A stretch of 25,193 nucleotides of DNA, from IMG/VR virus record IMGVR_UViG_3300043313_001003, positions 1-25,193 of that record, one strand, 5' to 3'. This document shows positions 22,540-25,193 of this stretch, in pieces. Every line of letters starts with the position of its first letter. The stretch's first letter is position 1. Origin of the DNA: a virus. The notes beneath the pieces are model-generated. The model did no database searches. It was given only the letters and a program-made list of their open reading frames with translations, and was not told where the DNA came from. A program made the position numbers and the translations under genes.

Positions 22540-22824
22540 TCACGACTCGATCTCGATCGCTTTGATCGCGCGCACGAGCGCTTGGCTCGCAAAGAGATCG
22601 AGCCCGAGCCGGTTCGCGTGATCGTGCACCAGCCGGGCGGCCTCAATGCGCACGAACTCGGCGTCAAGCCGGGCATATTCGAGCGCGGCCCAAACCATGA
22701 CTGCAACCCGATCGGAATCCTTGCCCTTGGTAAACTCGGCGAAGCGTTCGACGTATTCGCCCGGGGTGGCACCGTCGAGCCTAAGCATCGAAGGCTCACG
22801 GGCGGTCCTGCGCAGTTCAACCAT
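22540..22824 (-). CDS. Small helical unknown protein
   Basis: This 94-aa protein starts at the ATG at 22824, overlapping the KilAC gene by 8 nt, and ends 13 nt before the next ATG. It is mostly helical: PGEYVERFAEFTKGKDSDRVAVMVWAALEYARL and AEFVRIEAARLVHDHANRLGLDLFASQALVRAIKAIE. I recognise no family. It carries no membrane segment. Position in the operon is the only functional hint. Confidence 0.72.
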   Translation of the reverse strand: MVELRRTAREPSMLRLDGATPGEYVERFAEFTKGKDSDRVAVMVWAALEYARLDAEFVRIEAARLVHDHANRLGLDLFASQALVRAIKAIEIES

Positions 22825-23209
22825 TGGAATCTCCCTTGGGATTGTCGGTGGGCATTTCGCGCGCGAGCCGGGCGAGGCCCGCCGCTGTCACAAGCACTTG
22901 AGCGGTGATTGTCGCGGTTCCATCGACGCGCGGAATTGAAAGCACTTTCACGAATAAGAGCTTGGCGGCGACTTTCGGGGAATAGGCCTCCAGCCGATCG
23001 CCTTTGCGATAAATCCAGCCGTGGCCGATCATCCAGCCAATCAGGCGCCGCGGCCCGACGCCAAGAAAGTTCGCCGCCTGCGTCAGATTGAGCCCGCCGC
23101 GCGCGTGTGTCAGCCGCCGAAAATCGTCGGCTTGATCCTCGATCGTCTCGGCTTGAGCGATAATCTCAGGCGAGAGCCCGAGCTCGGCGAGGCGCTCGGC
23201 GAATCTCAT
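22817..23209 (-). CDS. KilAC-domain (antirepressor-type) protein
   Basis: This 130-aa protein carries a phage antirepressor KilAC domain in residues about 40-117. The pattern is LNLTQAANFLGVGPRRLIGWMIGHGWIYRKGDRLEAYSP, followed by AAKLLFVKVLSIPRVDG and TAQVLVTAAGLARLAREM. This winged-helix-like DNA-binding domain is usually the C-terminal half of antirepressors (after a BRO-N, KilA-N or Rha half). Here only a 38-residue helical N-terminus precedes it. It may act as a stand-alone transcription regulator of the phage. ATG at 23209 overlaps the previous stop (ATGA). The domain call is good; the target is unknown. Confidence 0.82.
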   Translation of the reverse strand: MRFAERLAELGLSPEIIAQAETIEDQADDFRRLTHARGGLNLTQAANFLGVGPRRLIGWMIGHGWIYRKGDRLEAYSPKVAAKLLFVKVLSIPRVDGTATITAQVLVTAAGLARLAREMPTDNPKGDSNG

Positions 23210-23412
23210 TTGCGTCCAGCCCCCCCGCCGCCGCGGTGAAACAGATCGACGTTCCGGCGAAAGATCTCGGTGCCCTCGCCATAGCCGAGGCGCTCAAGCT
23301 GGAGGCAGACCAGCCGATCGAATAGCCGGTGCCGCTTATCGCCATCATAGGCGGCGACGATCGAGCGGCAGCACTCGGCAAATTCATCGGGGGAAAGCGG
23401 GGCGTCTGTCAT
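23206..23412 (-). CDS. Small unknown protein
   Basis: A 68-aa protein is predicted from the ATG at 23412 (MTDAPLSP), overlapping the stop of the TGT-like gene as ATGA. A longer in-frame ORF to 23475 is a shadow. The middle is helical (DEFAECCRSIVAAYDGDKRHRLFDRLVCLQLERLGYGEG) and the end is Gly/Arg-rich (RGGGGAGRK). I recognise no family. Overlaps on both sides support translation. Confidence 0.7.
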   Translation of the reverse strand: MTDAPLSPDEFAECCRSIVAAYDGDKRHRLFDRLVCLQLERLGYGEGTEIFRRNVDLFHRGGGGAGRK

Positions 23413-24062
23413 GCTGCCGTCCGATCGATCAAGGCCTCTAGGTCGAGTTGCTGCCGCGCGAGCTCCAGCGGCCAAAGCGTGCCCGCGAAGCGCGAGGCGC
23501 TCGTGCCGTCGAAGCTGTCAACGCCAGCCGCGGCGCAAAGCCGGATTCGCCGGGCGGTGTTGACGCGGCCCACATGGCAAAGCGCGTCTCGAGACCGCGC
23601 GAGCGCCGCCCACTGTTTCATTGTGGCCAGCTTCCATTCGGTAGAGCCGCCGACGAATATCCCGAGGAGCGGGCCGATCAGCGCGGCAACATCCTCGGGC
23701 CCGACGCCATCCTGCACCACGAGCATTAGCGCTTGCCCGGCAAAGGCATCGTGCGCGCGCAGGCGGGCAAGCCAAGCGAGCGAAAGCGCGAGGCTATCGA
23801 GCCCGCCGACGACAATATCGGGAAGCGCGATCCACTTAGGCGGGAAAGGCTGGAGCGCAATCCAGCCGAGAAACTCCTCGAAGCGCGGCCCGTCAAAATC
23901 GCGCTTGGCGAGCTTGTCGGACCACGCGCCGTTCTCGGCGGCCCAATGCTCGAAGCCCTTGGTGTTCCATTTGTCGGCGCGCGAGACGAGCAATCGCCAG
24001 TTGGCCGAGCGCAGCGCGGCGAGATTGCGGCGCGAGCCGGTGCGGGAAGCGTAGGCGATCAT
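23409..24062 (-). CDS. tRNA-guanine transglycosylase-like (DpdA-type) protein
   Basis: This 217-aa protein looks like a compact TIM-barrel member of the TGT superfamily. Residues line up with TGT landmarks in order: NGAW (44-47) where TGT has SGGFQ; PDIVVGG (81-87); VVQDG (115-119) for VQGG; GIFVGGS (134-140) for G(I/L)AIGG; HVGRVNTARR (163-172) for the MGVG segment; and VDSFDGTSASR (181-191) for GVDMFDCVxPTR, whose aspartate is the nucleophile in TGT. TGT proper uses a C-terminal zinc site, and that is absent. Short zinc-free TGT relatives in phages include DpdA proteins, which exchange guanine in DNA for 7-deazaguanines. Substrate (DNA or RNA) cannot be told from sequence, and no queC/queD/queE/folE is in the window. 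It is coupled by ATGA at both ends. Confidence 0.68.
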   Translation of the reverse strand: MIAYASRTGSRRNLAALRSANWRLLVSRADKWNTKGFEHWAAENGAWSDKLAKRDFDGPRFEEFLGWIALQPFPPKWIALPDIVVGGLDSLALSLAWLARLRAHDAFAGQALMLVVQDGVGPEDVAALIGPLLGIFVGGSTEWKLATMKQWAALARSRDALCHVGRVNTARRIRLCAAAGVDSFDGTSASRFAGTLWPLELARQQLDLEALIDRTAA

Positions 24063-24244
24063 AGCAGCCGCTCGCCCTCGGCCTGCGCCCGGTAATCCTC
24101 GGCGATCGCGCGCATTAGCGCGAGCTCGCGCCTTGCCTTTTCGACGCTCATATCGCCGCGCTGGATTAGCCGTTCGTAAACCCGTTCGCGTTGCTTGATC
24201 TCGCGCTCGGCGCAGGCGAGCTTATCAGCGGCGGTGATCGTCAT
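24059..24244 (-). CDS. Small helical phage protein
   Basis: This 61-aa protein forms a probable coiled coil: DKLACAEREIKQRERVYERLIQRGDMSVEKARRELALMRAIAEDYRAQAEGERLL. I recall very similar short proteins (EREI.QRERVYPRL...GKM...KA.REIALM.AIA.DYRA) in phages and prophages of Alphaproteobacteria, without known function. ATG at 24244 follows the tiny membrane protein by 3 nt, and the stop overlaps the TGT-like start (ATGA). It may partner with the TGT-like enzyme, but this is only suggested by adjacency. Confidence 0.78.
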   Translation of the reverse strand: MTITAADKLACAEREIKQRERVYERLIQRGDMSVEKARRELALMRAIAEDYRAQAEGERLL

Positions 24245-24447: not shown

Positions 24448-25007
24448 GGCGTCAAGTCCTGCTGCCACCGCTCGCGCTCGCGCTTTAGCCGGGCGAGCGC
24501 CTCCCGGCTTTCCTCGTCGCTTTGCTCCTCCAGCCACTCCAGATAGTCGAGCGCCTGCCAAGCGCCGCCGACGATCCTCCAGCGCATGCGGAAATTGCCC
24601 GCGGCCTTGAGCGCGAGATTGCGCTCGTGGCATTGGACATCGGGCGGGGGCGCCTTGCGGCCCTGCCCGGGCGCGGGGGCTGTCAAGTATTGCTGCGCGA
24701 GCTCGGCGAGCTCGGAAGCCTTGGGCATGTAAGGCCGGGCGATCACCCACCGATCGATTGCATAGCGCAGCGCAGGCGGCGGGAGATCCGAGAGATCGGC
24801 GGCGAGCAATGCCAGCCGCCCCGCGTGCGCCTCGATCTCCTCTTGTAAGCTCGGGCGATAGCGCAGGCCGAGCTCACCGATCAGTGCCCGGATCGCTGCC
24901 GGAATCGATCTCGGCTTGCGCCTGTCGGAGCATGGCAAGGGCAGGATCTCGGCGCACGGCTCGCTGAAAGGCGGAAGCGCCTGCGAAAATGCTTTGGCCT
25001 CGTCCAT
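24444..25007 (-). CDS. Possible replication-accessory protein
   Basis: A 187-aa protein is predicted from the ATG at 25007, chosen for an AAAGGA eight bases upstream; further upstream codons in this frame look non-coding. Residues about 50-110 read YRPSLQEEIEAHAGRLALLAADLSDLPPPALRYAIDRWVIARPYMPKASELAELAQQYL. This helical pattern is seen in phage proteins encoded beside replication initiators (helicase-loader-like or lambda P-position proteins). The C-terminus is a charged helix (LEWLEEQSDEESREALARLKRERERW). Its first 134 nt overlap the end of the upstream replication gene in another frame. The functional guess is weak. Confidence 0.65.
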   Translation of the reverse strand: MDEAKAFSQALPPFSEPCAEILPLPCSDRRKPRSIPAAIRALIGELGLRYRPSLQEEIEAHAGRLALLAADLSDLPPPALRYAIDRWVIARPYMPKASELAELAQQYLTAPAPGQGRKAPPPDVQCHERNLALKAAGNFRMRWRIVGGAWQALDYLEWLEEQSDEESREALARLKRERERWQQDLTP

Positions 25008-25193
25008 TTGGCCGTCCTTTCCTCTCGGCGATCTCCAGCCAGTTCGCCCATGCGCCCTGCCAATCCATTTTTTTTGCATTGGGCGTGGCGCTTGCCGCCC
25101 AATGCGCGCGGAAGTTTTCAAGCGCGTCCTCGACCCAATCGGGGCCCATGCGCTCGGCGCGGAGCGCGGCCTGCGTGCGGGGCCCGAAAGGCT
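24874..25193 (-). CDS. C-terminal part of a replication initiator-type protein (runs off window)
   Basis: The frame is open from the right edge (25193) to a stop at 24874; only the last 105 or so residues are present. They contain WVEDALENFRAHWAASATPNAKKMDWQGAWANWL, the pattern F-R-x-x-W...K-x-D-W-x-x-x-W-x-N-W. This is typical of the C-terminus of phage replisome organisers and DnaT/YdaU-like proteins that load the helicase. The following 50 residues (Gly/Ala/Arg-rich, to GSDPGTDR) overlap the next gene. Its 5' part lies outside the window, so domain order upstream is unknown. It appears to be the first visible gene of the early operon. Confidence 0.72.
   Translation of the reverse strand, partial: PFGPRTQAALRAERMGPDWVEDALENFRAHWAASATPNAKKMDWQGAWANWLEIAERKGRPNGRGQSIFAGASAFQRAVRRDPALAMLRQAQAEIDSGSDPGTDR

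Follow-up and report, generated by a model that had tools for sequence, protein, structure and literature searches.

Among the closest described systems is DpdA of Enterobacteria phage 9g, a 317-aa enzyme (Hutinet et al. 2019, PMC6884629). Its histidine H196 is said to tell DpdA from DpdA2, and the same founding survey called the modification status of phage DpdA singletons "difficult to predict"; one such singleton-DpdA phage, Orion, had no 7-deazaguanine in its DNA, and its host cannot make preQ0 (PMC6884629). A second relative, Cap10, belongs to type IV CBASS, in which a 7-deazaguanine is put on a protein (PMC11996544), and the Cap9 of these systems is mostly found in an operon with a CD-NTase (PMC13329287). 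The third is the classical tRNA-guanine transglycosylase (Tgt, PF01702), a zinc-motif protein of ~375 aa.

We analyzed a virus record of 25,193 nucleotides (hereafter, the window), a 25-kb sequence with portal, head, tape-measure, and tail-fibre genes, and focused on a small gene that resembles these enzymes. We put the probability at roughly 70% that it encodes a compact base exchanger of the TGT/DpdA superfamily, which would place a preQ0-type base into phage DNA and thereby benefit the phage against restriction. The gene and its surroundings, in reading order, are as follows.

24874..25149, minus strand: DnaT/primosomal-protein-like reading at the window edge (phrog_3992 primosomal protein, 1.1e-7)
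24059..24244, minus strand: charged, probably coiled-coil protein of 61 aa, directly upstream of the TGT-like gene
23409..24062, minus strand: compact TGT/DpdA-like gene, 217 aa, PHROG 15826 family, ATG start
23206..23412, minus strand: small protein, 68 aa if begun at the ATG that overlaps the TGT-like stop
22817..23209, minus strand: KilAC-domain antirepressor-like protein (PF03374, 7.1e-16; phrog_63)

The sequence-only reading had placed a gene at 23409–24062, locked between two neighbors by ATGA overlaps and following replication-type genes. The ORF exists, but on the minus strand, where it runs from 24062 down to 23409; the plus-strand reading is interrupted by stops. Both overlaps are present: the 61-aa upstream ORF (24244–24059) terminates in an ATGA that contains the TGT-like start codon, and the ATG of the downstream ORF, at 23412, overlaps the TGT-like stop (a longer start is listed at 23475). 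The upstream protein has a weak match to phrog_19667 (0.014), a PHROG annotated as unknown, and the small downstream protein gave zero family matches in Pfam and PHROG searches. The DnaT-like reading is consistent with the replication-type genes claimed upstream, its PF17948 match (0.0093) being under the cut-off. The antirepressor-like gene is context and stands outside the proposed mechanism; its KilAC domain is a stand-alone one, with just one small ORF between it and the TGT-like gene.

Compared with 9g DpdA, the window protein shares a predicted TGT barrel, counterparts of H196 (H163) and D215 (D185), and the GG motif, and its family is linked to preQ0 genes (39/118 loci), though the window itself is not. 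Unlike the 317-aa enzyme, however, members of the compact family measure ~210 aa, their similarity to it falls below detection by BLAST or curated profiles, and they usually have one adjacent preQ0 gene or none; the window copy also has Glu at the position of 9g D72. DpdA2, as in Vibrio phage nt-1, lacks the H196 histidine and was ruled out by that mark, since H163 is present. The compact family is filed here as DpdA-like and not as DpdA proper.

PHROG 15826, a family of "unknown function," matches the window protein at 2.9e-40 and also matched all 53 relatives tested. The curated models stayed below their cut-offs: PF01702 gave the window protein 14.5 bits against a required 26.3 and produced three weak matches among the 53 relatives (best E 0.0034), while the PADLOC DpdA profile left the window protein unmatched and matched one of the 53 (0.0042). 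An NCBIfam search of the window protein returned zero matches. DUF3151 and other weak Pfam matches among the relatives were below cut-off and were taken as chance.

Annotated relatives were found by tblastn. Erythrobacter phages vB_EliS_R6L (gp10) and ZS04 (gp101) encode proteins with 46–47% identity to the window protein over 97% of its length; they were deposited as "hypothetical" and "DarB-like antirestriction," and their records draw no DpdA link. The same search found actinophage proteins deposited as "DpdA-like tRNA-guanine transglycosylase," namely Mycobacterium GreaseLightnin gp55, Arthrobacter Sonali 81, and Rhodococcus ReqiPine5 gp03. These belong to the same compact family (~40% identity over 75–87 aa, with the key residues in common) and form a separate tree clade from the window protein; "DpdA-like" is their annotators' label. 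The GreaseLightnin and ReqiPine5 copies adjoin yhhQ. In Sonali, another TGT-like gene, 87, lies ~2.4 kb away (L004 5688–6255) and is larger than the compact one.

The family is large. The window protein used directly as query gave no loci; they were obtained by scanning from R6L and then from an alignment. The alignment scans gave 535 viral loci, the best 80 of which were analyzed, and 66 loci in cellular genomes. The set used for gene context comprised 118 non-redundant loci. Searching plasmids by tblastn, we found the compact TGT in 169 PLSDB records, 146 of them from Pseudomonas. Several of these Pseudomonas plasmids measure 380–520 kb, Burkholderiales plasmids carry the gene too, and the plasmid copies (e.g. 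L159 = pND6-1, L160, L161, and L162) are nearly always annotated as "hypothetical protein." Our verdict is that the window gene belongs to a widespread and mostly unannotated compact DpdA-like subfamily of phages and plasmids.

The AlphaFold2 model of the window protein, built from an alignment of 53 sequences drawn only from the scan-derived loci, reached a pLDDT of 95.2 and a pTM of 0.90. Its best Foldseek match in the PDB was murine TGT (3.3e-5), and TGTs form most of the top 50, with a CitE protein and triosephosphate isomerases close behind; the best BFVD matches include viral proteins named queuine tRNA-ribosyltransferase. One BFVD entry, A0A0F7L9Z1 from an uncultured marine virus, is a 499-aa protein that joins a compact TGT domain (40% identity) to an additional part. 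With VIA-align, TGT scored Z 15.5 over 208 residues, and pyruvate kinase tied with it at Z 16.0. When solved structures were searched by sequence or by profile, TGT did not match significantly. The window protein is modeled as a TIM barrel of the TGT kind, as had been anticipated, but such a barrel alone does not prove function, given that pyruvate kinase and further TIM barrels score level with TGT.

The strongest evidence for a DpdA-like role comes from the neighboring genes. We clustered all ORFs around the 118 loci blind to function, and the most consistent neighbor was QueC (PF06508, 2e-41), directly downstream of the compact TGT; another, directly upstream, was PF02592 (Vut_1), to which the preQ0 transporter YhhQ belongs. 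Using models made from the clusters, queC adjoins the gene in 23 of the 118 loci, queD in 7, and yhhQ in 11, for a union of 39, and all 39 have the linked gene on the same strand with a gap of at most 654 bp. Because the longest start was used for some ORFs, the large overlaps (e.g. −522) reflect start-codon choice, with no effect on adjacency or strand. One locus (L073) has TGT, queC, and queD in a row, and queC and yhhQ occurred together in none of the 118. DNA methyltransferase genes lie within 3 kb in 29/118.

This linkage also appears in whole records. In a separate, independent check, a Pfam search found QueC in 18 of 50 virus records bearing the family and in none of 50 control records, which were chosen through an arbitrary DNA word (Fisher p = 5.9e-7, a value to be taken as a guide, as the virus records are related to one another). 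QueD was found in 6 and FolE in 1 of the 50 family-bearing records, and every QueC, QueD, and FolE lay within ~0.7 kb of the TGT gene. The single FolE (GTP cyclohydrolase I), at L025 7573–7974 (G007:26461–26862), is directly upstream of a compact TGT. The tree needs nine changes of the queC label, at least three of which are forced by well-supported branches. Taken with the predicted fold, the match to the 9g DpdA active site, and the annotated actinophage relatives, it is above all the adjacency to queC, queD, folE, and yhhQ that supports the proposed TGT/DpdA kinship.

The choice of partner gene follows what the host can do. QueC was matched in 15 of the 17 host genomes of cellular copies, and 13 of the 17 have their own TGT. 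The compact TGT adjoins yhhQ in Nonomuraea (L152), Microbacterium (L154), and Planomonospora (L156); QueC was found in neither the Microbacterium nor the Planomonospora genome, the Nonomuraea genome gave a marginal, partial QueC match (6e-4), and none of the three matched tRNA TGT. In the Cellulomonas genome (L148), a tRNA TGT match appeared only below the cut-off. The partner gene thus matches what is missing in the host, an indication that the substrate is a 7-deazaguanine.

The window protein itself falls in a clade of 17 rows (SH-aLRT 96) that also holds copies from Sphingopyxis, Sphingobium, and Sphingomonas; queC, queD, or yhhQ linkage occurs in none of these 17 rows. A search for QueC in the window found none. 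The hosts of its nearest cellular copies are four sphingomonads and one proteobacterial MAG, all of which have both QueC and their own TGT. The earlier suggestion of host-made preQ0 fits this pattern, and the data support the view that phages of the window's clade may draw on host preQ0.

The same superfamily and the same precursor genes nearby would also suit an enzyme that exchanges bases in host or phage tRNA, like classical TGT, and retunes translation during infection; tRNA is, after all, the ancestral TGT substrate. We consider this unlikely. The predicted fold and catalytic residue pattern resemble those of Tgt, but the protein is only 217 aa in the window and ~200 aa in general, and the zinc site is missing, as the sequence-only reading had stated: on inspection the window protein's cysteines are single, and the CxCxxC motif occurs in 0 of 149 relatives. 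On this and on the Pfam cut-off, identity as a tRNA TGT was rejected. The window has zero tRNA genes, most hosts of cellular copies already own a TGT, and DNA methyltransferases are often near the compact form. We infer a DNA substrate instead because of the kinship with DpdA, the missing zinc part of tRNA TGT, the location on phages and plasmids, and the nearby methyltransferases.

The key residues of the window protein are E43, D82, Q117, G138–G139, K144, H163, R166, and D185. The six TGT landmarks named before are found in order (ENGAW at residue 43, PDIV at 81, VQDG at 116, VGGST at 137, HVGRV at 163, and DSFDG at 182). These landmarks are not chance: conservation reaches 90% or more in 28 columns of the other 149 family sequences, and at 27 of those the window protein has the conserved residue. 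Profile alignment to 9g DpdA pairs H163 with H196, D185 with D215, E43 with D72, and the G138–G139 pair with the GG at 162. H163 is His in all 146 rows that have the column, and D185, D82, Q117, and G138–G139 are invariant or nearly so in the family, their correspondence to TGT/DpdA sites being that of the profile alignment alone. An equivalent of the nucleophilic aspartate, on which the earlier proposal had been staked, thus appears to be present as D185. The profile–profile comparison was only suggestive (9g DpdA, P 3e-4 and 18% probability; TGT, P 5e-3 and 3%), so it is fold, residues, and linkage in combination that carry the argument.

The sole mismatch among the 28 columns is E43, which stands immediately before the NGAW landmark and replaces a near-invariant Asp (143 of 144 other informative members), a change that the sequence-only reading did not mention. 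This Asp is the counterpart of D102 in Z. mobilis TGT, in TGT enzymology a base-binding residue and the probable general acid/base. The second active-site Asp (9g D72) thus appears, by alignment, to be a family feature that has undergone a conservative change in the window copy, and Glu at this residue may mean poorer activity or altered specificity. Should E43 abolish activity, the window copy would be nonfunctional, even with the other 27 of the 28 conserved columns unchanged. That it belongs to a DpdA-like family but has itself lost activity strikes us as very unlikely, however, since the remaining strongly conserved columns and the ATGA coupling have been retained and the only other Glu, in L028, belongs to the same three-row clade.

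A further reading takes its cue from Cap10 (9ntn), which is among the best Foldseek matches (1.3e-4): the protein would place or read 7-deazaguanine on a protein N-terminus, with the neighboring QueC acting like the Cap9 of type IV CBASS. Cap10 likewise has a TGT-family fold outside tRNA modification and a QueC-family partner, the QueC neighbors here are short, and at least two of them (L073 and L091) show the YxQ(x)5E variant reported for Cap9. The YxQxHxxE motif is variable among these neighbors. They retain the SGGxDS, RN, [YF]xDC, and CxxCxxC motifs (loop, pocket, and zinc) of preQ0-forming QueC, though, and by pattern the Cys-Tyr of preQ0-making QueC is kept in 22 of 24, the other two having a shorter spacer. 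Unlike Cap10, the compact family has no CD-NTase nearby (PF18144 was absent from all 27 records searched, of which 23 have QueC), and other members have queD, folE, or yhhQ as partner instead, the yhhQ-linked forms being without a QueC partner. We regard the chance of such a protein-directed role as slim. A counter-defence glycosylase, one that takes modified guanines or 7-deazaguanines out rather than inserting them, has the slimmest chance of all: the changed acid/base residue, E43, could favor hydrolysis over exchange, but removal needs no adjacent queC, queD, folE, or yhhQ.

By all indirect evidence, then, the compact family acts like DpdA. By analogy with TGT and DpdA, D185 would attack the sugar C1′ of guanosine while E43, D82, Q117, and G138–G139 hold the base; guanine would leave, and a 7-deazaguanine, most simply host-made preQ0, would be inserted. 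The enzyme would most likely act on the phage's own DNA and so probably shield it from host restriction, and plasmid-borne members would do likewise for plasmid DNA. We see an even chance that tailed phages and large Pseudomonas and Burkholderiales plasmids have in common a minimal enzyme of ~200 aa that marks DNA with 7-deazaguanine on its own: with a preQ0-making host it would require no biosynthesis gene, and elsewhere queC, queD, folE, or the importer yhhQ would accompany it.

If true, no DpdA-type enzyme would be smaller and few would be commoner; almost none of the family has been annotated so far. If it marks DNA, modified guanine would have gone unrecognized in part of the phages and large plasmids, with consequences for restriction, plasmid transfer, and sequencing artefacts. 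With hundreds of viral loci and the 169 plasmids, mostly called hypothetical, the family makes the question of DpdA singletons testable.

Two other associations were seen. A PAPS-reductase-family gene (PF01507; seen at L002 8463–9506, L006 3406–4323, L162 9744–11549, L096, L099, L112, L128, L129, L136, and L146) is found no more than 700 bp from the compact TGT in 10 of the 118 loci, and it is also near the TGT in isolated phages and plasmids; like QueC, PF01507 is an N-type ATP pyrophosphatase, and this neighbor could provide a further tailoring step. A fusion occurs in a Gemmataceae genome (L147 9875–10948 and L151 9830–10987), where the compact TGT carries an added C-terminal segment with paired CxxC motifs; by eye, this segment resembles the zinc/helix-turn-helix start of an ISL3-type transposase.
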